From Luteimonas wenzhouensis (GTDB taxonomy: Bacteria > Pseudomonadota > Gammaproteobacteria > Xanthomonadales > Xanthomonadaceae), in contig NZ_VOHE01000003.1 of the NCBI RefSeq assembly GCF_007859305.1, forward strand, positions 310,001 to 374,000: a stretch of 64,000 bases of DNA. Reading direction: 5' to 3'. Position 1 is the first letter of the stretch, and each line of letters opens with the position of its first letter. Positions 47,621 through 59,116 of the stretch are shown piece by piece. Both the position numbers and the translations under genes were made by a program. The notes under the pieces are model-generated. The model saw only the letters and a list, made by a program, of their open reading frames with translations, was not told where the DNA came from and searched no databases.

Positions 47621-48145
47621 ATGCAGCGCAACAGTGCAGCGGGCGTCAGCCTCATCGAGCTGCTCGTGACCGTGGCGGTCGTGGCGATCCTGCTGGCGAT
47701 CGCATTCCCGAACTTCGAGGGGTCGATGCGCCGCAACCGCCTGGCCACGACCACCAACGAACTGCTGGGCAGCGTCGCGCTGGCCCGCTCCGAGGCGATC
47801 CGCAACACCCGCGGCGCCGGCATCTGCGCCAGCGCGGACGGCCTGGCCTGCGGCGGCGACTGGAACGACGGCTGGCTGGTGTGGACCGACGGCGTCGATC
47901 CGCCGCCGACCGGCACCGTGATCCGGGTGGTCGATGCCCATCCCCGGCTGGAGCTGGTCGCCGCCGACGCCGGCGGCGCCGGCGTGAGCGAGGTCGCCTT
48001 CGACTACCGCGGCCGGCCGACCGACTTCGCGAGCACCGTCTTCACCCTCCAGCCCGACGCGTGCCCGAGCGGCCAGGAGCTGGTGCGCACCCTGACGATC
48101 AACATCTCCGGACAGATGGTCAACCAGCGGGAGGCTTGCCCATGA
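47621..48145 (+). CDS. fimT: Type IV minor pilin FimT/GspH family
   Basis: A 174-residue pseudopilin. The prepilin leader MQRNSAAG is cleaved before VSLIELL, with Glu at +5 of the mature protein, followed by the hydrophobic alpha-1 helix and the FimT-type RRNRLATTTNELLGSVALARSEAIRN segment (in parts: RRNRLATTTNELL, ALARSEAIRN). The start is fixed by a strong ribosome-binding site (GGTGGGGGAC) just before ATG 47621. First gene of the minor pilin operon; homologues also bind DNA in some competent species. Confidence 0.94.
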   Translation: MQRNSAAGVSLIELLVTVAVVAILLAIAFPNFEGSMRRNRLATTTNELLGSVALARSEAIRNTRGAGICASADGLACGGDWNDGWLVWTDGVDPPPTGTVIRVVDAHPRLELVAADAGGAGVSEVAFDYRGRPTDFASTVFTLQPDACPSGQELVRTLTINISGQMVNQREACP

Positions 48146-48624
48146 CGATCCGTCGGGCGGGGGGCGGCGGGCGGCGGCGCCAGGCCGGCTTCTCCATGAT
48201 CGAGGTCCTGATCGCGCTGGTCGTGCTGGCATTCGGCCTGCTGGGCCTGGCCCTGATGCAGACGCTCAACCTGCGCTACACCCAGAGCGCGCAGCAGCGC
48301 ACCCTGGCCGTCAACCTGGCCAGCGAACTGCTGGATACCATGCGCACCAACCGCAGCCAGCTGGCCGCGTACGCGATGGCCAAGGCGGACTTCGACAGCA
48401 TCGACTTCTCCGATGGCTGTCCCACCTTCGACCCGGCCACCGCGGCGAGGAACGTGGAGCGCTGGCAGTGCGAGGTCAAGGAATCGCTCGGCCCGGACGC
48501 CTACGCGATCGTCGACGTCTCGGGGGCGCCCACGGTCTCGGTCACCGTGGTGTGGACCGAACGCGGGACCGGCGGCACCGATGGCGCCGCGGAAGGCAGC
48601 ATCGAACTGGAGACCACCCTGTGA
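48142..48624 (+). CDS. pilV: Type IV minor pilin PilV
   Basis: A 160-residue pseudopilin with leader ending RRRQAG before FSMIEVLIALVVLAFG, a textbook PilV start. The globular part carries two Cys (DGCPTF, WQCEV) that may form the C-terminal disulfide. ATG overlaps the fimT stop (ATGA); the stop overlaps the pilW GTG. Confidence 0.95.
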   Translation: MTIRRAGGGGRRRQAGFSMIEVLIALVVLAFGLLGLALMQTLNLRYTQSAQQRTLAVNLASELLDTMRTNRSQLAAYAMAKADFDSIDFSDGCPTFDPATAARNVERWQCEVKESLGPDAYAIVDVSGAPTVSVTVVWTERGTGGTDGAAEGSIELETTL

Positions 48625-49904
48625 GGGCGCATCCGAAGCGGCGCGGCGCGGCCGGCCTGTCACTGATCGAGCTGATGATCGCGCTGGCCATCGGCTCGCT
48701 GCTCATCCTCGCGCTGGTGGAGGTGTTCGCGGCCTCGCGCGCCGCGTACATGCTCGCGACCGGCCTGGCCCGGACCCAGGAGAACGGCCGGTTCGCGATC
48801 GACATCCTGCAGCGCGACCTGCGCATGGCCGGCCACGCGGGCTGCGTCAACGACCAGGCGCGCTTCCTGCCCGCCAACGTCACCGCCTCGCGCCCGGCCC
48901 TGATCTCGACCTTCCTCACCGACGACCAGCAGTTCAACGGCGACTACGCGGCGGTCGGGTCCCCGGGCCTGCGCTTCGACATGAGCATCACCGGCTACGA
49001 GGCGGTCAACACCGCCAGTGGCGACACGGTGTCGATCCCGGCGACCCCGGTGGTCGCGGGGCAAGGCGCCTGGACCGGGATGCCGGGAAACCTGTTCGCG
49101 GCCTTCCCGTCGGCGGCAAACGCGCCCGGGCGGCCGGTGACCAACAGCGATGTGCTGGTGCTGCGGTTCTTCGCGCCGACGGGAGTGCAGGTGGAGCAGT
49201 TCATCCCGGGCAACCCGGCCACGATCCGCTTCCCGCCCGCGCAGCAGGCGCGGCTGACCGAAGGGCTTTCGAACCCCGGGCTGTTCGCGATCGCCGACTG
49301 CATGCAGGCTGCGGTCTTCCAGGCCAGCAACACGCCGTTCACCGCCGCGCCATCGCCTGCCGGCACCATCACCGTGGCCACCGGCGGGCTGAACGCCTCG
49401 AGCTTCTTCGCGACCCCGCCGTTCACCAGCGGCCAGGCGATGCTCTACAGGGCCGAGAGCGTCATCTACTACGTCGGCATCAACGGCAACGGCAATCCTT
49501 CGCTGTACAGGATCCGGTTCGCCGCCCCGCCGGGCAGTGCCGCGGTCACGGCCATGGCGCCGGAGGAACTGGTGGAGGGCATCGAGTCGCTGCAGCTCGA
49601 GTTCGGGCAGGACAGCAACACCTCCGCCGCGCAGACGCCGACCGGCAACATCGCCAGCAGCGTGGTCGCCAGCGGCGTGCAGCCCGCCGGGGATCCGGAA
49701 ACCGCCTGGCGCCGGGTCGGCATGGTCCGGGTGGGGCTGCTCGCGCGCAGCACCGAACCGGCCTCGGCCGAGCAGCGCAACACCGGCGAGGGCACCACGC
49801 GCCTGTCGGCGGTGGGCGTGGTCTTCAACCCGCCCGACGATACCCGCTACCGCGCCGTCTACGAGGACACGGTTGCCCTGCGCAACCGGCTGTTCGGGAA
49901 CTGA
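48621..49904 (+). CDS. pilW: Type IV minor pilin PilW
   Basis: A 427-residue protein with leader VRAHPKRRGAAG cleaved before LSLIELMIALAIGSLL. PilW helps prime pilus assembly and export PilY1. The family segment ENGRFAIDILQRDLRMAGHAGC follows the helix (given as ENGRFAIDILQRDLR, MAGHAGC). Longer than the P. aeruginosa protein (about 274 aa), as is common in Xanthomonadaceae. The GTG start overlaps pilV (GTGA). Confidence 0.94.
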   Translation: MRAHPKRRGAAGLSLIELMIALAIGSLLILALVEVFAASRAAYMLATGLARTQENGRFAIDILQRDLRMAGHAGCVNDQARFLPANVTASRPALISTFLTDDQQFNGDYAAVGSPGLRFDMSITGYEAVNTASGDTVSIPATPVVAGQGAWTGMPGNLFAAFPSAANAPGRPVTNSDVLVLRFFAPTGVQVEQFIPGNPATIRFPPAQQARLTEGLSNPGLFAIADCMQAAVFQASNTPFTAAPSPAGTITVATGGLNASSFFATPPFTSGQAMLYRAESVIYYVGINGNGNPSLYRIRFAAPPGSAAVTAMAPEELVEGIESLQLEFGQDSNTSAAQTPTGNIASSVVASGVQPAGDPETAWRRVGMVRVGLLARSTEPASAEQRNTGEGTTRLSAVGVVFNPPDDTRYRAVYEDTVALRNRLFGN

Positions 49905-49913
49905 GCAAGCACC

Positions 49914-50381
49914 ATGAAGAACCATTCCAGCCTTTCCAGGTCCAGGCAATCGGGCGCCGTGCTGTACGTGGCGCTGATCATGCTGATCCTGCTGGCGCTG
50001 ATCGGCGTGATCGCGATGCAGGTGGCCAGCCTGCAGGAACGCATGTCGGCCAACTACCACGCCGGCAACATGGCCTTCCAGAACGCCGAATCCGCCGCCC
50101 GCCTGCAGGAGCGCGACCTGGACGCGCTGGTCAACGCCGGCCGCAACCCGCCGACCAACGTGGCGCCGACCAATTGCACCTACTCCTTCGACGCCGCGGC
50201 CTGGAACAGCAGCACGCCCTTCGTGCGTCGCCTCGACCTGTGCTTCTCCTGGGGCGCGCTCGACCTGCCCGCGGACGAGGCGGAGCGGACCGACCAGATC
50301 TACCAGGTCACGGCCTACAGCCGCGACCGCCCGATCTTCCCCTCATCCGAATCGGTGGTCGACACCGTGTTCATCCCCTGA
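49914..50381 (+). CDS. pilX: Type IV minor pilin PilX
   Basis: A 155-residue protein with leader MKNHSSLSRSRQSG and a hydrophobic helix (AVLYVALIMLILLALIGVIA). As usual for PilX, the Glu+5 region deviates from the major pilin rule. The motif SLQERMSANYHAGNMAFQNAE follows (in parts: SLQERMSANY, MAFQNAESAA), diagnostic of PilX. It connects PilY1 to the minor pilin tip complex. Confidence 0.93.
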   Translation: MKNHSSLSRSRQSGAVLYVALIMLILLALIGVIAMQVASLQERMSANYHAGNMAFQNAESAARLQERDLDALVNAGRNPPTNVAPTNCTYSFDAAAWNSSTPFVRRLDLCFSWGALDLPADEAERTDQIYQVTAYSRDRPIFPSSESVVDTVFIP

Positions 50382-50402: not shown

Positions 50403-53400
50403 ATGAGCCACAGCACAGTCCTTCGCGTCGGCATCGTAGGCCTCGCGGTCGCCCTGCTCGGGATCCGCAGCGCGAGCGTCCAGTCCGACACGGTCTACTT
50501 CGCCGGCTCGCCGCCGACCATCGCCCAGACGCCGCTGTACCTCGACGACGCGGTGCCGCCGTTGAACATGCTGGTGATGGGCAAGGACCACAAGATCTAC
50601 TACGAGGCCTACAACGACGCCTCCGACCTGGACGGCGACGGCATCCTCGACGTCGGCTACCGCGGCTTCGAGCTCAAGAACCCGGCGCCGACCGACGGCA
50701 GTTCGCGCTTCAAGATCGACTATTACGGCTACTTCAACTCGTATGCCTGCTACAGCTGGCAGACCGATCGCTTCGTGCCGGTCGCGGCCGCCCCGAACAA
50801 GACCTGCTCCGGCAGCTGGAGCGGCGACTTCCTGAACTACCTCACCATGTCGCGGATGGACGCGCTGCGCCGCGTCCTCTACGGCGGCTGGCGGCAGGTG
50901 GACACGCAGGACGAGACCATCCTGCAGGGCGCCTTCTTCCCCCAGGACGCGCACAGCTGGGGCAAGGAGTACCAGAGCATCGAGCGCGACGGCTACGACA
51001 TCCGCGACTACGCGCCGCTGCCCCTGCCGGCGCCCAACAAGTACCACCTGTTCGCCGTCACCACCGTGAGCGACAGCAGCGCGGGGTTCCCGGACTACAC
51101 CGCGCCGATGTTCCGGGTGCTGCAGAACAGCGACTTCCGCGTGTGGAACTGGCTGTCGATCGAAGGGCCGGTGGCCGGCAACCGCTGCTTCAACGCGAGC
51201 AACACCCGCGTCGATTGCGTGAACAACGCCGCGGCGAGCTGGCAGCTGGTTCCGTCGTCGGCGCTGCAGAACCTGCAGATCTCGACCTGGCGGCGGCCGA
51301 ACAATGTCGGCAGTCCGGCCGACCTGGCAGGCATGAACGACCTGTTCAACCAGTACGCGGTCTCGAGCCACCTGTGCGGTAGCGGCACGGTCACGCAGAT
51401 CAACAAGACGAACTCGGGCAACCCGTTCACGGGCAACAGCTGCGGACACGACAATTACCTGACGCGCATCACCGGCCAGATCGTCATCCCCGCGGATGGC
51501 ACCTACCGGTTCGCGGTGGACGGCGATGACGCCGTCGACCTGTTCATCGACGGCAACCACGTCGTGGGCTGGTACGGTGGCCACGCGAACGACCGCAGCA
51601 ACGGCGGCCTCAACAGCCACTCGGCGAGCGTCACGCTCAGCGCGGGCGTCCACACCATCGAGTTCCGCCACGAAGAGGCCACCGGCGACGACAGCTGGGG
51701 CCTGTTCTGGCAGGACAGCTCGAGCGCGGCCAGCCGCCAGGATTACCTGGTCCGGGTGCAGGCCTGCCGTGGCGGGGACGCATATGCCGACCTGCGCGAG
51801 AGCGTGTGCAAGGCCTACGGCACGGCCGACAACCCGATCTACAAGCCGACCGGCATCCTCCACGACTATGGCGAGACCCGGAAGATGTTCTTCGGCCTGA
51901 TCACCGGGTCGCAGGCGAACAACCTCGAAGGCGGCGTCCTGCGCAGCAACATCGAGGACTTCAACCGCGAGATCGATCCGGACACGGGCATCTTCCGCGC
52001 CAACGTCGAAGGCATCGTCCGCAGCATCGACCGCCTGCGCATGATCGGCGGCGGCTACAACAGCGGGGTCACCAACAACCTCAACGGCGACACCAACTGG
52101 AACTGGGCGAACACGGCCCACGGGGTCGGCGGCTACTGCGAATCCCAGGGCGGCCGCGCCCTGAGGAACGGCGAATGCCGCATGTGGGGCAACCCGATCG
52201 CGGAGATGCTGTACGAGGGGCTGCGCTACTTCGCCGGGGCGGCCACGCCGACCACCCGCTTCTCCAGCGGCGGCAGCAGCCAGGGCCAGGCCGAGGACAA
52301 CCGGCTGGGCCTGCCGGCCCCGGCCTGGCGCGACCCGTACTCCGACACGGTGGTCGACGGCGTGACCACGCACACGGCCTATCCGTCGTGCGCGCGCCCG
52401 CACATGACCATCATCAGCGACATCAACCCCAGCTACGACGGCGACCTGCCGGGCAGTGCCTTCGAGGACGCGATCACGACCGTCAACAACACGCCCGCCA
52501 CGATCAGCGGCTTCAATGCCGCCGAGGAGGGCGCGGCGATCTGGAATGCCGAGTTCGGCGGGCCGCAGACGGTCTTCATCGGCGAAGTGCTCGGCGACGG
52601 CGGGGTGCTGGTCAACGACGGCGCGCCGACGGCGAAGACCGCCTCGAGCTTCGGCACCATCCGCGGCCTGTCGCCGGAGGAGCCGACCAAGCGCGGCACC
52701 TACTATTCCGCGAGTGTCGCCCGGTTCGGGCGCAACACCGACGTGAACCCGGCGCCCGGGAACCAGAACGTCAACACCTACTCGATCGCGCTCGCGTCCC
52801 CGCTGCCGCAGATCGCGTTCCCGGTGGGCGGCCGCTGGGTCACCCTGCTGCCCTTCGCCAAGACGGTCAGCGGCACGTTCGGCGAGAACCCGATCAAGCC
52901 CACCAACACCATCGTCGACTTCTACGTCGAGGACTTCCAGAACTTCCCCGGCCAGCCGGTGGACCCGGCAGTCAACGGCGGCCGGCCCAGCGCGGTGTTC
53001 CGGATCAACTACGAGGACGTCGAGCAGGGCAACGACCACGACATGGACATGATCGTGCGCTACCAGGTCGTGGCCAACGCCGACAACACCGTGACGGTCA
53101 CGCTCGACTCGGAGTACGCCGCGGGAAGCGCGAACCAGAATGCCGGGTACGTCATCTCGGGAACCACCCAGGATGGCGTGTACCTCGAGGTCCGCGACCG
53201 CGACAGCGCGCAGAACACCTCGGTGTATGAACTCAACACCCCGAGCGGCGTGTGGGCCGGCGGCTGCATCGGCGCCACCAACACCTGGCCGTGCAACCAG
53301 GGCCTCGGCCTGGCCTCCACGCGGACTTTCACCCCCGGCGACGCGGGTCGCGGGGTCCAGCTCAGGGATCCGCTGTGGTACGCGGCCAAGTACGGATCGC

Positions 53401-55721
53401 CGACCCCGACGGCCTGGGACGCGGATGGTGACGGTGATCCCGACAACTACTTCCTGGTCACCAACCCGCTCAACCTGCGCGCGCAGCTGTCCAGGGCGTT
53501 CGACGACATCGCCAGCTACAGCATCGACGCGGGCAGCCAGACCCTGACCGGCGCCCGCGTGGGCAGCGGCTCGTTCACCCTGGTGCCCAGCTTCCAGCGC
53601 GACCGGGACGGCAAGGACTGGTTCGGCAACCTGTCCGCGGTCGCGATCACGCCGGAGGGCACGCTGGTCGACACCGAGCTGTGGAATGCGCAGGCCAAGC
53701 TGCCGGCGCATGGCTCGCGAAGGATCCACACGGTGGTCCAGCCGGGAGCCAACAACGCGGTGCAGGCGGTCGAGTTCCGCGGCGACAACACCAACCTGGG
53801 CCCGGACGATCCGTCCAAGCTGGCCAGGCTGGGGATCACCGGTTCGCTGTCGACCCTGCCCAACGCCTATGGCGCGGTCTATGACGCCGCGGCGATCGTC
53901 GACTACCTGCGCGGCGACCAGTCGCGCGAGAGCGGACGCCCCGGCGTGGGCAACACCCTGCGGGCGCGGACATCGGTGCTCGGCGACATCGTCAACTCCG
54001 AGCCGGTGATCGCCTCGCCCCGGTCCGACTTCGGCTACGGGAGCTTCAACGATCCCATGTTCTCCGGGTACGCCGGCGAGAACGGCTACCTGGAGCAGAA
54101 GGCGTCGCGGCCGACGGTGGTCTACGTCGGCGCCAACGACGGCATGCTGCACGCGTTCAACGGCAATACCGTGCCGTGCGACGCCGGCGATCCCAACAGC
54201 GTGGCGTGCGCGCATCCGGCCGCCGGCAGCGAGATGTTCGCCTTCATCCCGCAGGAGTCGCTGCGGCGGATGGGCGCGCTCGCGCTCCCGGACTCCCTGT
54301 ACGAGCACCGCTACTACGTCGACGGCCAGCTGATGGTCACCGACGCCAAGGACGCGACCGGTGCCTGGAGGACGGTCCTCGTCGGCTCCATGGGCGGCGG
54401 CGGCCGTTCGGTGTTCGCGCTCGACGTCAGCAACCCCGAAGGGTTCGGCAACGGCAGCGTGCTGTGGGAGCTCAACAGCAGCGTCGACCAGGACATCGGC
54501 CACGTGTACGGCCGGCCGCTGCTGCTGCCGCTGGAGAACGACCGCTGGGGCGTGCTGTTCGGAAATGGCTACGGCGGCAACACCAGCGACCCGTCGCTGT
54601 ATGTGGTGGATGCCTTCACCGGTCAGCTGATCGCCAAGCTGACGGCCGACGACGGCCATCGGGCCAGCAATGCCGGCACGCCCCTGTCGAACTGGATCTG
54701 TTCGGTCACCGGGCTGCTGTGCGCGGAGGTCGACCATCCGTTCAACGGGCTGGGCCAGATCACCGCCATCGACCGCGATGGCAACGGCAAGGCCGATACC
54801 GTCTATGGCGGCGACCTGCAGGGCAACGTCTGGAAGTTCGACCTGAGCGGCGATTCCGCGGCCAACTGGGAAGTCGCGCTGGGCGGGCAGCCGCTGGTCA
54901 CGGCGATCGCCTCCAACGGCGAGCGGCAGCCGGTGACCGGGGGGCTGCGCGTGTCGGCGGGCCCCGGCTCGGGCGTGATGGTCTACTTCGGCACCGGTCG
55001 CTACTTCCTCGACGGCGACAACGAGATCCCGCAGGAGCCCGACGTGCAGTCGCTGTACGGCGTGTTCGACAACGACACCCCGATCGTGATCGCCGACGAA
55101 ACCCAGAAGGACGTGGTCCTGCAGCGCCAGTGGATCCAGGCCGAGGTCGAGACCAACATCGATACCGACGGCGACGGGGTGAACGATACCCGCACCGTGA
55201 CCCGTAACATCAGCCGCAACCGGGTGAGCTACTACGGACCCAACGCCAAGCGAGGCTGGTACCTGGACCTGGTCGTGGACAACGAGGATGGCACGGCGTC
55301 GGGCACGGACCTGCGGCCCGAGGGCGAACGCTTCATCGCCACCCCCAGGATCCAGAGCGGCCGCGTGTTCTTCACCACCTTCTCGCCCACCGGCGACAGC
55401 TGCGATCCGGGAGGGACCAACATCGTCTACGCGCTCGACCTGCTGTCGGGATCGGGCGCGCTGAGCAACGTGCGTTCGGTAGGATCCGAGGCCGCTGCGT
55501 GCACCGGTCCCAACTGCGGGGCCGTGCAGATCCCGGAAGGCGGAGCCCCGATCACCAGCACCTCGGTGGCGGCGATCAACCCGACCCGCTACGTCACCAA
55601 CCCGGCCTGCACCCCGGGCGTGGACTGCCCGACGTTCGAGGAATGCCAGGTGGTGATCTACCCGGGCGCGTTCGTCCTGCCGAGGCCATGCGGGAGGCAG
55701 TCGTGGCGACAGCTCAGGTGA
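50403..55721 (+). CDS. pilY1: Type IV pilus tip adhesin/assembly factor PilY1 with PA14-like module
   Basis: A 1772-residue exported protein (signal peptide ~1-27). The C-terminal half (~1190-1690) is the PilY1 beta-propeller domain: PTVVYVGANDGMLHAFNG, SMGGGGRSVFALDV and the Ca-binding loop DRDGNGKADTVYGGD (~1457-1471). Unlike PilY1 of P. aeruginosa, I see no vWA MIDAS motif (DxSxS) in the N-terminal part. Instead there is an EF-like loop DLDGDGILD (~78) and a PA14-like module (~355-440: IPADGTYRFAVDGDDAVDLF, GVHTIEFRHEE, GLFWQDSS). PilY1 promotes pilus extension and surface adhesion. It lies 21 bp after pilX. Confidence 0.95.
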   Translation: MSHSTVLRVGIVGLAVALLGIRSASVQSDTVYFAGSPPTIAQTPLYLDDAVPPLNMLVMGKDHKIYYEAYNDASDLDGDGILDVGYRGFELKNPAPTDGSSRFKIDYYGYFNSYACYSWQTDRFVPVAAAPNKTCSGSWSGDFLNYLTMSRMDALRRVLYGGWRQVDTQDETILQGAFFPQDAHSWGKEYQSIERDGYDIRDYAPLPLPAPNKYHLFAVTTVSDSSAGFPDYTAPMFRVLQNSDFRVWNWLSIEGPVAGNRCFNASNTRVDCVNNAAASWQLVPSSALQNLQISTWRRPNNVGSPADLAGMNDLFNQYAVSSHLCGSGTVTQINKTNSGNPFTGNSCGHDNYLTRITGQIVIPADGTYRFAVDGDDAVDLFIDGNHVVGWYGGHANDRSNGGLNSHSASVTLSAGVHTIEFRHEEATGDDSWGLFWQDSSSAASRQDYLVRVQACRGGDAYADLRESVCKAYGTADNPIYKPTGILHDYGETRKMFFGLITGSQANNLEGGVLRSNIEDFNREIDPDTGIFRANVEGIVRSIDRLRMIGGGYNSGVTNNLNGDTNWNWANTAHGVGGYCESQGGRALRNGECRMWGNPIAEMLYEGLRYFAGAATPTTRFSSGGSSQGQAEDNRLGLPAPAWRDPYSDTVVDGVTTHTAYPSCARPHMTIISDINPSYDGDLPGSAFEDAITTVNNTPATISGFNAAEEGAAIWNAEFGGPQTVFIGEVLGDGGVLVNDGAPTAKTASSFGTIRGLSPEEPTKRGTYYSASVARFGRNTDVNPAPGNQNVNTYSIALASPLPQIAFPVGGRWVTLLPFAKTVSGTFGENPIKPTNTIVDFYVEDFQNFPGQPVDPAVNGGRPSAVFRINYEDVEQGNDHDMDMIVRYQVVANADNTVTVTLDSEYAAGSANQNAGYVISGTTQDGVYLEVRDRDSAQNTSVYELNTPSGVWAGGCIGATNTWPCNQGLGLASTRTFTPGDAGRGVQLRDPLWYAAKYGSPTPTAWDADGDGDPDNYFLVTNPLNLRAQLSRAFDDIASYSIDAGSQTLTGARVGSGSFTLVPSFQRDRDGKDWFGNLSAVAITPEGTLVDTELWNAQAKLPAHGSRRIHTVVQPGANNAVQAVEFRGDNTNLGPDDPSKLARLGITGSLSTLPNAYGAVYDAAAIVDYLRGDQSRESGRPGVGNTLRARTSVLGDIVNSEPVIASPRSDFGYGSFNDPMFSGYAGENGYLEQKASRPTVVYVGANDGMLHAFNGNTVPCDAGDPNSVACAHPAAGSEMFAFIPQESLRRMGALALPDSLYEHRYYVDGQLMVTDAKDATGAWRTVLVGSMGGGGRSVFALDVSNPEGFGNGSVLWELNSSVDQDIGHVYGRPLLLPLENDRWGVLFGNGYGGNTSDPSLYVVDAFTGQLIAKLTADDGHRASNAGTPLSNWICSVTGLLCAEVDHPFNGLGQITAIDRDGNGKADTVYGGDLQGNVWKFDLSGDSAANWEVALGGQPLVTAIASNGERQPVTGGLRVSAGPGSGVMVYFGTGRYFLDGDNEIPQEPDVQSLYGVFDNDTPIVIADETQKDVVLQRQWIQAEVETNIDTDGDGVNDTRTVTRNISRNRVSYYGPNAKRGWYLDLVVDNEDGTASGTDLRPEGERFIATPRIQSGRVFFTTFSPTGDSCDPGGTNIVYALDLLSGSGALSNVRSVGSEAAACTGPNCGAVQIPEGGAPITSTSVAAINPTRYVTNPACTPGVDCPTFEECQVVIYPGAFVLPRPCGRQSWRQLR

Positions 55722-55753
55722 ACCAGCGGCACTGGATCCAAGGGGAAACGAAC

Positions 55754-56209
55754 GTGCGACGTGAACCGACCATCACAGGAAGGCGGGGCCATCGGCAGCA
55801 GGGGTTCACCCTGATCGAGCTGATGATCGTGGTGGCGATCGTGGGCGTGCTGGTCGCGATCGCCTATCCCTCCTATACCGACAGCGTGCGCAAGGGCAAG
55901 CGCGGCCAGGCCAAGGGGCAGCTGGTGGAACTGGCGCAGCGCGCCGAGCGCTACCGGACCGTGAACAACGGCTCGTTCGCGGGCTTCTGGGACACGGTGC
56001 CGAGCACGGACCGGCGCTCCCCGAAGGAAGGTACGGTGGCCTACACCCTGGACTTCGCGGCTACCGATGGCGGGGCCGGCTTCACCCTGTCGGCCGTCCC
56101 GCAGGGCGCGCAGACTGCGGACACGCGCTGCATGACCCTGACGCTGACCGATACCGGCAAGAAGGGCGTGACCGGCGGGGCCACCGGGACGGTCGCGGAC
56201 TGCTGGTAG
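55754..56209 (+). CDS. pilE: Type IV minor pilin PilE
   Basis: A 151-residue pilin-like protein with leader ending GHRQQG before FTLIELMIVVAIVGVLVAIA. Two Cys near the C-terminus (TRCMTL, ADCW) form the D-region disulfide. GTG 55754 is preferred because AAGGGG lies 7-8 bases upstream; an in-frame ATG at 55688 would overlap pilY1 and give an unusually long leader. Last gene of the minor pilin operon. Confidence 0.93.
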   Translation: MRREPTITGRRGHRQQGFTLIELMIVVAIVGVLVAIAYPSYTDSVRKGKRGQAKGQLVELAQRAERYRTVNNGSFAGFWDTVPSTDRRSPKEGTVAYTLDFAATDGGAGFTLSAVPQGAQTADTRCMTLTLTDTGKKGVTGGATGTVADCW

Positions 56210-56405: not shown

Positions 56406-56933
56406 TCAGCCCGCGGGGCAGGGCAGGCCGGCGGCCGGGCGGGTGCTGCGGGCACGGCCGTGGTTGTTGACCACCACCTGGCCTGCGACCGAGCCGTGCC
56501 GGCACACGTGGACGGTCAGATTGGAGTGGGCGCTGCGCCCGTCCCTCTGGTAGCGCAGGTACGGCCTCGAGGATCGCAGGGCGAATCCCGGCCCGGTCGG
56601 GGCATCGGTGGCCCGCAGGACCTGCTCCGCGGCGCCCGGCCGGCGGTCGCCGTCGAGGTCCACGAAGACCAGCCACCCCCGGCTCCAGTCCGACGCCGTG
56701 CTGCAGCCGCCCGACCGGTCCATCGGGCAGACCACCACCTGCTCGCCACGGATCACCGCGGTGCTCCGGGCCATGGCCATGTCGGCCATGAGCAGGTGCA
56801 GCGCCAGGGTGACCCGGTTGCGCTGGATCGCCTCGGCGAACGCGGGCACGCCCGCCAGCACGAGGCTCGCCGCCAGCGCGAGCACGACCATGGCCTCGAT
56901 CAGCGAGAGCCCCCGGATCCGTTCATGCATCAT
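56406..56933 (-). CDS. Second FimT/GspH-like type IV pseudopilin
   Basis: A 175-residue pseudopilin with leader MMHERIRG cleaved before [20 protein letters not shown], Glu at +5. The FimT-type region [20 protein letters not shown] and paired cysteines ([25 protein letters not shown]) follow. It is a paralogue of the FimT gene at 47621, but lies on the opposite strand, apart from the operon. It may give the pilus or a type II-like system an alternative tip subunit. Start is ATG 56933 (a second ATG follows at once). Confidence 0.88.
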
Positions 56934-57079
56934 TCTGCTCCGTCCATGGGCAGGCCCGCAGTGTCGGCGACCGTCGGCCGCCGGGGGATCGGCGGGAGCG
57001 GCGGTCCGGGGTAGGAAAACGCCGCGCCAGCCCCCATCCACGTGGATCGCTACACTGGACGGCCCGCCCGACGCCCCCG

Positions 57080-59116
57080 ATGACCCGCTCCGCGCCCTCC
57101 GCCAGGTTCCAGCTCGTTGCCCCGTACCAGCCCGCGGGCGACCAGCCGCGGGCGATCGAGAAGCTCGTCGAAGGCTTCGAGGACGGGCTTGCGCGGCAGA
57201 CGCTGCTCGGCGTCACCGGCTCGGGCAAGACCTACACCATCGCCAACGTCATCGAGCGGGTGCAGAAGCCAACCCTGGTGATGGCGCCGAACAAGACCCT
57301 GGCCGCGCAGCTGTACGGCGAGTTCAAGCAGTTCTTCCCGCACAACGCGGTCGAGTACTTCGTCAGCTACTACGACTACTACCAGCCCGAGGCCTACGTG
57401 CCGTCCACCGACACCTTCATCGAGAAGGACAGCTCGGTGAACGAGCACATCGAACAGATGCGCCTGTCGGCGACCAAGGCCCTGCTGGAGCGGCGCGACG
57501 CGATCATCGTCTGCACCGTGTCGGCGATCTACGGCCTGGGCGATCCGAACGAGTACTTCAAGATGGTGCTGCACATGGTGCGCGGCGAGCGCATCGACCA
57601 GCGCGAGCTGATCCGGCGCCTGACCGAGATGCAGTACACCCGCAACGACACCGAGCTGCGTCGCGGCACCTACCGCGTGCGCGGCGAGGTGGTGGACGTG
57701 CACCCGGCCGAATCCGACGACGAGGCGCTGCGGATCGAACTGTTCGACGGCGAGATCGAGAAGCTCACCTTGTTCGACCCGCTCACCGGCGAGACCCGCA
57801 GGTCGCTGCCGCGCTACACCATCTATCCCAAGTCGCACTACGTCACCACGCGCCGGACCACGCTCGACGCGATCGAGGCGATCAAGCGCGAGCTGCCCGA
57901 GCGGCTGGAGCAGTTCTACGCCCAGAACAAGCTGGTCGAGGCCCAGCGCCTGCAGCAGCGCACCCAGTTCGACCTGGAGATGATGGCCGAGGTCGGCTAC
58001 TGCAACGGCATCGAGAACTATTCGCGCCACCTCACCGGGCGGATGCCGGGCGAGGCGCCGCCGTGCCTGTTCGACTACCTGCCGCCGGACGCGCTGCTGG
58101 TGGTCGACGAGTCGCACGTCACCGTCCCGCAGATCGGCGCCATGTACAAGGGCGACCGCTCGCGCAAGGAGACCCTGGTGGAGTTCGGCTTCCGGCTGCC
58201 GTCGGCGCTGGACAACCGGCCGCTGAAGTTCGAGGAGTGGGAGGCGCGCTCGCCGCGCACGATCTTCGTCTCGGCGACGCCTGGCAGGTACGAGCTGGAG
58301 AAGTCGCAGGGGCAGGTGGTCGAGCTGGTGGTGCGCCCGACCGGCCTGGTCGACCCGGAGGTCGAGATCCGGCCCGTGGCCACCCAGGTGGACGACGTGC
58401 TGGGCGAGATCAACAAGCGCGTGGCGATGGGCGACCGGGTGCTGATCACCACGCTCACCAAGCGCATGGCCGAGAACCTCACCGAATACCTCGGCGAGCA
58501 CGACGTGCGCGTGCGCTACCTGCACTCGGACGTGGATACGGTCGAGCGGGTGGAGATCATCCGCGACCTGCGCCTGGGCAAGTTCGACGTGCTGGTGGGC
58601 ATCAACCTGCTGCGCGAGGGCCTGGACATGCCCGAGGTGTCGCTGGTGGCGATCCTCGACGCCGACAAGGAGGGCTTCCTGCGTTCGACCGGTTCGCTGA
58701 TCCAGACCATCGGCCGCGCGGCGCGCAACGTGCGCGGCAAGGCGATCCTGTACGCGGACACGGTGACGAAGTCGATGCAGGCCGCGATCGAGGAGACCGA
58801 TCGCCGGCGGCAGAAGCAGATCGAGTACAACGCCGAGCACGGCATCACCCCGCAGTCGGTGGTGCGCGCGGTAATGGACATCATGGAAGGCGCCCGCGAC
58901 GAACCCGCGGCGGCGCGGGCGGCGACCGGCAAGGCGCGCCGGGCGGCCGAGGAGGCCGAAGACTACGCCTCGCTCGATCCGGCCAGGCTGGCGGCCCGGC
59001 TCAAGGCGCTGGAGCAGCGGATGTACCAGCACGCCCGCGACCTCGAGTTCGAGGAAGCGGCGCGGGTGCGCGACGAGATCCGCAGGATCAGGGAAGCGGC
59101 GCTGGCCGGTTCGTGA
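57080..59116 (+). CDS. uvrB: Excinuclease ABC subunit B
   Basis: A 678-residue nucleotide excision repair protein that verifies DNA damage and loads UvrC. Motifs: [10 protein letters not shown] (Walker A, ~residue 42), the beta-hairpin [23 protein letters not shown]-type motif II, and a C-terminal UVR domain (~635-670, [20 protein letters not shown]). A -10-like TACACT is at 57051. I found no LexA-box-like palindrome just upstream. Confidence 0.99.

Follow-up and report, generated by a model that had tools for sequence, protein, structure and literature searches.

PilY1 of Pseudomonas aeruginosa joins a vWA domain with a MIDAS to a beta-propeller (PMC9210963). In Myxococcus, PilY1.1 has a putative sugar-binding Ca domain in its N-terminal half (PMC9109919, PMC13190605), and AlphaFold-Multimer modelling in M. 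xanthus makes the N-terminal domain of PilY1 the ultimate tip of the pilus (PMC13190605). A 2026 survey of published PilY1s gives vWFA and DUF4114 as their N-terminal domains and no other (PMC13190605). A glycan-binding module at a type 4 pilus is also described for Streptococcus sanguinis PilC (PMC9934059), where it is grafted on a pilin (lectin graft: PMC9109919).

The window analysed here, a stretch of 64,000 nucleotides from Luteimonas wenzhouensis, encodes a PilY1 that can be set beside these proteins. It shares with P. aeruginosa PilY1 the C-terminal propeller (3hx6), the minor-pilin operon and, by the model, a vWA-like N-terminal fold, and it differs by its lack of DxSxS, by an EF-like loop and by the PA14 domain inserted in it (PMC9210963). 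The Myxococcus domain is DUF4114, another family than the PA14 found here (PMC9109919, PMC13190605), and the S. sanguinis module sits on a pilin, unlike the putative glycan-binding module here, which fills a slot in PilY1 itself (PMC9934059, PMC9109919). Taken as a whole, sequence comparisons and structure models make it probable that this PilY1 is a MIDAS-less vWA-like scaffold bearing an exchangeable, Ca-dependent, lectin-type PA14 cassette at the pilus tip. The points we present as new are that the module fills a defined slot, left empty in certain homologues, that it occurs in two strand orders, and that its forms were exchanged at the same operon.

Searches of literature whose coverage mostly leaves out subscription papers turned up no report of a PA14 domain in a PilY1. 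Plain searches for PA14 and PilY1 are ambiguous, PA14 being also the name of a P. aeruginosa strain; "PA14 domain" with "type IV pili" gave nothing on PilY1 by title, and "PA14 domain" with "circular permutation" matched one review alone. Because Pfam itself detects the domain, databases may already show PA14 in PilY1.

The pilY1 operon and the N-terminal scaffold

The ORF at 50403-55721 matches Pfam T4P_PilY1 (PF05567) at 142.7 bits. Its C-terminal part resembles 3hx6, the solved structure of P. aeruginosa PilY1 (E 5.7e-52), and has the PilY1 beta-propeller, the one such propeller detected in the genome. Four DxDxDG-type Ca loops occur in the protein, at residues 75, 1006, 1457 and 1587; the loop at 1457 aligns with DNNSDGVAD of 3hx6, which we take to be the known Ca site of P. 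aeruginosa PilY1. The gene is set in a minor pilin operon (Table 1), adjoined by PilW, PilX, a ComP_DUS-type pilin, a further N_methyl ORF and GspH. ComP_DUS is the Pfam family of the DNA-uptake-sequence receptor. Outside pilY1, the genome (G000) has further PA14 matches at C12:360220-360642, C15:235462-235749 and C14:74887-75111. In L040 (G001) and L068, an in-frame TAG in the N-terminal part splits pilY1 (Luteimonas sp. 4-12), which makes it either a pseudogene or a sequencing error.

Table 1. Features of pilY1 and adjoining genes, with positions in the window; residue numbers refer to PilY1.
Feature	Position	Strand	Basis
ORF with prepilin methylation motif, pilV position; true start inside ORF	47881..48624	+	pilV named by position
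pilW; true start inside ORF	48468..49904	+	neighbour-gene profile search
pilX	49914..50381	+	neighbour-gene profile search
pilY1, 1772 aa, with PA14 module	50403..55721	+	ORF translation, Pfam, structure match
First strand of the vWA-like fold, residues 52-64, reads PPLNMLVMGKDHK	50556..50594	+	sequence against canonical relatives, model strand
EF-hand-like loop DLDGDGILD (DxDxDGxxD), residues 75-83	50625..50651	+	sequence, 78-sequence alignment
Cys...Cys, residues 262-272, left border of slot; like pair in empty slot of L195	51186..51218	+	
Inserted module, residues 273-446; absent from L195 and other empty-slot PilY1s	51219..51740	+	
WxLVP...L stretch, residues 280-297; N side here, C side in permuted modules	51240..51293	+	
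Pfam PA14 match, residues 310-434	51330..51704	+	Pfam 42 bits, cut-off 24
D375-D376, aligned with DcisD pair of PA14 lectins	51525..51530	+	alignment; motif in PMC8092209
EEATGDD, residues 424-430, aligned with ligand loop L11	51672..51692	+	by eye from 6m8m alignment
DYLVRV, residues 447-452, right border of slot	51741..51758	+	sequence
TIISDINPSYD, residues 669-679	52407..52439	+	model, alignment
C-terminal beta-propeller, residues 1157-1770, homologous to 3hx6	53871..55712	+	Pfam, 3hx6 match
Ca-type loop DRDGNGKAD, residues 1457-1465, within C-terminal propeller region		+	sequence
Minor pilin (pilE position), Pfam ComP_DUS; ORF overlaps pilY1 end, true start inside ORF	55499..56209	+	
GspH/FimT-like pseudopilin	56406..57041	-	

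At the expected first strand of a vWA domain the window protein reads PPLNMLVMGKDHK, against PPAFIMAVDDSGSM in L054, a canonical PilY1 of the same genus with DxSxS. MGKDHK occupies the place of that motif, an equivalence of residues 52-64 to the canonical MIDAS strand that was read by eye, the profile comparison not reaching there. L054, as an example of the canonical PilY1s of the genus, also has MLFTDG farther on. Loss of DxSxS is common to the subfamily, with G at position 60 in 72 and H at position 63 in all of the 78 aligned sequences. The EF-hand-like loop, a putative Ca loop, is kept in nearly all of them (D75 in 78/78, D79 in 77/78, D83 in 76/78).

Pfam VWA matched none of the 79 subfamily proteins at E 0.01. 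Nor did it match any of 11 PilY1s used for comparison, 10 from the genus and 1 from the order, although DxSxS can be seen by eye in 10 of the 11. Because these 10 likewise have no match, the silence of Pfam is uninformative, and we rejected it as proof that vWA is absent. A profile comparison of the window family with canonical PilY1s aligned the last 87 columns alone, so the link to vWA rests on the structure model.

The AlphaFold2 model of residues 30-1159, made from 78 sequences, has a pLDDT of 84.4 and a pTM of 0.80. VIA-align matched it to 6fpy (inter-alpha-inhibitor heavy chain 1, residues 287-480, which we take to be its vWA domain) at Z 10.9 and rmsd 3.1 over 191 residues; among the 50 structure matches listed, most of them PA14, the vWA entries are 6fpy and its mutant 6fpz, which are one protein. 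The match is discontinuous, running over model residues 20-1013 (window residues 49-1042) with PA14 inserted within. These results support an N-terminal core that is a vWA-like fold, built discontinuously and lacking the MIDAS; by the model, what was lost is the MIDAS motif and not the vWA fold. The stretch TIISDINPSYD, whose D673 is invariant in 78/78 aligned sequences, is possibly a remnant of the later MIDAS acid of that fold.

The earlier note, made from the letters of the window, had read this ORF as a PilY1 whose N-terminal half has an EF-like Ca loop, no MIDAS-type DxSxS and no recognisable vWA domain. The gene assignment, the Ca loop and the missing motif are all borne out. The statement on vWA stands as far as DxSxS is concerned and fails for the fold, as the model matches the vWA-bearing 6fpy. 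A vWA fold at the N-terminus, which the note itself had named as evidence against its view, is thus what the AlphaFold2 model gives.

The slot and its PA14 module

Five module-less relatives, four from the genus and one from the order, can be aligned to the family across 748 profile columns, and the module appears as a gap. In L195, from genome G071 of the same genus, the scaffold is the same and the Cys...Cys is followed directly by DFTVRVDVC; judged by its sequence, this is a natural empty slot. The slot also looks empty, by eye, in L199, L200 and L202 of the wider Pseudomonadota. That the empty slot is a proven loss was not upheld, as L195 branches off close to the root of its tree, where the fork is open.

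Residues 40-256 have a match in 27 of 299 Pseudomonadota genomes, and the module was present in one (L198) of the 15 loci examined among the 26 matching genomes besides the window's own. Within the genus, PilY1 was matched in 50 of 52 genomes: 13 of these proteins carry PA14, 26 carry DxSxS (25 by motif search and L062 by eye), 4 have neither (RDE type) and 1 has the empty slot, the remainder being 2 of a third type and 4 that are not classifiable. The third type, in G003 (L063) and G075 (L187), is without DxSxS, DH motif and PA14.

A scan of named genomes gave 321 relatives, and the best 79 by likeness to the window were taken as loci. They span Lysobacterales, Comamonadaceae, Chromatiaceae, Methylococcaceae, Competibacteraceae, Pseudomonas, Thermodesulfobacteriota and others. 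Pfam PA14 matched 65 of 79 proteins (the window and 78 loci) at E 0.01, leaving 14 with no match, and a module profile made here, partly from those loci, matched all 79 fetched named loci. Neither profile was accepted as a census of the module: Pfam passes over 14 proteins in a set that the module profile matches throughout, and the module profile was applied to loci ranked by likeness to the window and built partly from them. A single CBM_35 match in a set of 37 loci (A3) was not found again in parts of 15 of the 37. L134, from a Deltaproteobacteria MAG, is a PilY1 of 2451 aa in which three Calx-beta stretches precede the scaffold.

The Pfam PA14 match in the window protein scores 42 bits against a gathering cut-off of 24, and a GLEYA match stays below its cut-off. 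The model region of about residues 277-443 aligns with PA14 proteins at Z 14.3 to 10.3, including 6qe7 (14.3), MpPA14 6xa5 (13.5), the RTX-adhesin PA14 6m8m (13.4), Flo5 2xjr (12.2) and Epa1 4asl (10.7). The PA14 fold in the model extends over about residues 289-442. Foldseek agrees, with E 1e-6 to 1e-4 for PA14 lectin entries. The PA14 pattern quoted in the earlier note is present in the sequence, with Pfam PA14 above cut-off, and structure prediction, which the note had proposed as a check, gives a PA14 fold that aligns with the lectins MpPA14 and Flo5. The note had also supposed that the tip might recognise glycans instead of, or besides, working through a mechanosensing vWA domain. "Besides" agrees with the model, in which PA14 is inserted in the vWA-like fold; "instead of" does not.

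In MpPA14, from a Marinomonas ice-binding adhesin, Asp110-Asp111 in cis hold the sugar-binding Ca, and loop L11 takes part (PMC8092209). By model and alignment, the window module shares with it the PA14 fold, the putative Asp-Asp Ca pair and the ligand loop, and differs in its setting, as MpPA14 belongs to a 1.5-MDa adhesin and not to a pilus (PMC8092209). D375-D376 align with ADDG of 6m8m and are kept in 76/78 aligned sequences; L075 is without both Asp and L108 reads ND. G374 and Y391 are each kept in 78/78, and in the EEATGDD loop E425 is kept in 73/78, G428 in 74/78 and D430 in 69/78. The Asp pair and this loop fit a kept Ca-dependent ligand site. Since the PA14 fold is supported by both sequence and model and the Asp pair is so widely kept, a glycan-binding pilus tip is plausible.

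PA14 domains can be structural or protein-binding. The module might then be a spacer of that kind rather than a lectin, and its variation a sign of relaxed constraint. In its favour, the empty slots indicate that certain lineages can do without the module, and residues 257-440 are the most variable part of the protein, with a mean entropy of 1.85-2.15 bits against 1.09-1.63 elsewhere in residues 40-1040. We nevertheless consider a spacer unlikely, because amid this variation the Ca and ligand positions (DD 76/78, Y391 78/78, D430 69/78) remain conserved, which fits a kept binding site.

Strand order and exchange of the module

The window module starts with SWQLVP..ALQNLQISTW ahead of the core. 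In the permuted form the core comes first and the strand stretch last, as in WAVVPSSKFSGLTQTFY of L122. A strand profile made from 38 N-side stretches, none of the permuted class, was run on 86 whole proteins. It scored best on the N side of the core in 51 proteins, on the C side in another 24 and at some other place in 2, with no match in 9. The C-side matches reach E 1e-8 (L127, L134) and 1e-6 (L120, L122), the others being weak. In none of the 86 proteins did the strand score above 3 bits on both sides, and 3.8 bits was the highest score among the controls, which comprised 1020 shuffled proteins and 17 reversed ones. Class labels were assigned by eye to 15 proteins of the permuted form and, for the N-side form, to L133. 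In the latter, from Rhodocyclus tenuis, the DD strand of the module is followed by an additional long loop, and the module has no Pfam match.

A C-side form, L066, was modelled from 12 sequences (pLDDT 74.9) and matched the PA14 entries 6qe7 (Z 12.9) and 6m8m (Z 12.6). The stretches of MpPA14 aligned by the N-form and C-form models differ slightly (15-172 and 25-185). At sequence level, the two module forms are a circular permutation, which may have arisen by duplication and loss of the strand.

The modules of 27 proteins fall into two types in their tree, with support of 99/98 (100/98 on shared columns). On the scaffold tree of the same 27 proteins these types need 7 changes, 6 of them forced by firm branches. 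The N/C form was followed on trees of 80 of the 86 proteins, which were quick ones made without bootstrap, the scaffold tree under a plainer model, and whose change counts depend on the by-eye labels: it takes 4 changes on the module core tree, at least 2 of them forced, against a mean of 25 for shuffled labels. On the scaffold tree it takes 16, at least 9 of them forced, against a shuffled mean of 24.8. The difference between 16 and 4 changes indicates that modules were exchanged, and the difference between 16 and 24.8 that descent also counts.

The nearest scaffold relative of the window PilY1, G005, is 85% identical to it at residues 501-1040, but in the module core the identity is 33%. Pseudoxanthomonas CF125 is 62% identical at residues 501-1040 and 69% in the module core, and a Dokdonella module reaches 56%. 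Per 30-codon bin, the DNA identity of the window and G005 is 0.76-0.91 at residues 181-270 and 451-570, and 0.45-0.63 at 271-420. The scaffold trio of the window, G034 and G005 is firm (100/100); the pairing of the window with G005 over G034 is weak (95/93, AU p 0.041). AU tests, for clades named after the trees had been seen, rejected this trio as one clade of the module tree (p 3e-63, or 4e-37 when shared columns were used), as well as the scaffold pairs L067 with L080 and L070 with L075 (p 3e-4 or less). A scaffold tree with the first module type gathered on one side was also rejected (p 4e-34). The window genome, G034 and G005 have the same operon, beside the ORF at 57080-59116 (presumably uvrB), and PilY1 matches fall in one ORF in each of the three genomes. 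The shared operon and the single PilY1 ORF make paralogues an unlikely cause.

PilY1 modules thus appear to have been exchanged between close orthologues at the same operon. That the module types came about with no exchange, by fast divergence in place or from hidden paralogues, we hold to be very improbable. The module trees are short (122-177 columns) with many weak forks, and the forms keep some clustering on the scaffold tree, both of which would suit such an account. It is opposed by the firmness of the split into two types on either set of columns, by a window module that is nearer to CF125 and Dokdonella than to its nearest scaffold relative, by the one PilY1 ORF per genome at the same operon, and by the rejection of vertical grouping in the AU tests.

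A proposed choice of target at the pilus tip

The following mechanism would accommodate these results. By the model, the N-terminal half is a vWA-like scaffold with no MIDAS DxSxS and an EF-hand-like Ca loop nearby, and the lectin-type PA14 module sits in one of its loops, between the Cys pair at 262-272 and DYLVRV at 447. At the tip, where we can only presume its orientation, the most likely role of the module is to bind a glycan of the surface via Ca held on D375-D376 and the neighbouring loop. Retraction would then pull on the glycan-bound module through the vWA-like scaffold, to which it would be mechanically coupled. The cassette occurs in three states among homologues, namely an empty slot, the form with the strand before the core, and the permuted form with the strand after it. 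By swapping forms, orthologues could change tip specificity while the assembly parts stay, perhaps under selection for that change.

Exchange, rearrangement and absence of the module in close relatives suggest that the tip target can change quickly. We tentatively extend this, by analogy, to a proposal that is possible though doubtful: the slot may be a tip specificity locus, at which species trade circularly permuted PA14 lectins through module-confined recombination, switching the glycan that is gripped. It is also conceivable that what drives the exchange is not the glycan target but phages that bind pili and make use of the PilY1 tip. Type IV pili do serve Stenotrophomonas phages as receptors (PMC6024842), and the phage records of our collection held no relatives of residues 30-439, a result that is neutral on the matter. 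We judge phages to be a quite improbable driver, and keep to glycan choice.

If the slot does set specificity, twitching bacteria could switch the neighbour, matrix or host glycan that they grip, much as TraA alleles set the recognition groups of myxobacteria. This would bear on the means by which type IV pilus tips select their targets, reducing the question to one loop, one module and two key residues. Natural empty slots, natural swaps and orthologues that differ most at the slot would offer a direct handle on tip choice. A circularly permuted lectin-type module inside a host loop would also be an unusual case in protein evolution.

Two described systems come close to this picture. Acinetobacter ComC shares with the window PilY1 an insertion in the vWA scaffold of a PilY1 homologue, with variants exchanged within the genus, and deletion of its finger impaired adhesion, twitching and DNA uptake (PMC10374093). 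The ComC insert differs in being a finger with a Tyr-rich motif and not PA14, and it is the whole T4aP gene cassette that is exchanged there (PMC10374093). Myxobacterial TraA, likewise a surface receptor, has a PA14-like domain that is polymorphic, and some of its alleles are apparently chimeric (PMC3820747). It is not a pilus protein, and its specificity was shown by allele replacement, whereas that of the window PilY1 is presumed (PMC3820747). By analogy, the ComC finger of Acinetobacter and TraA would be the nearest functional parallels to the window PilY1.
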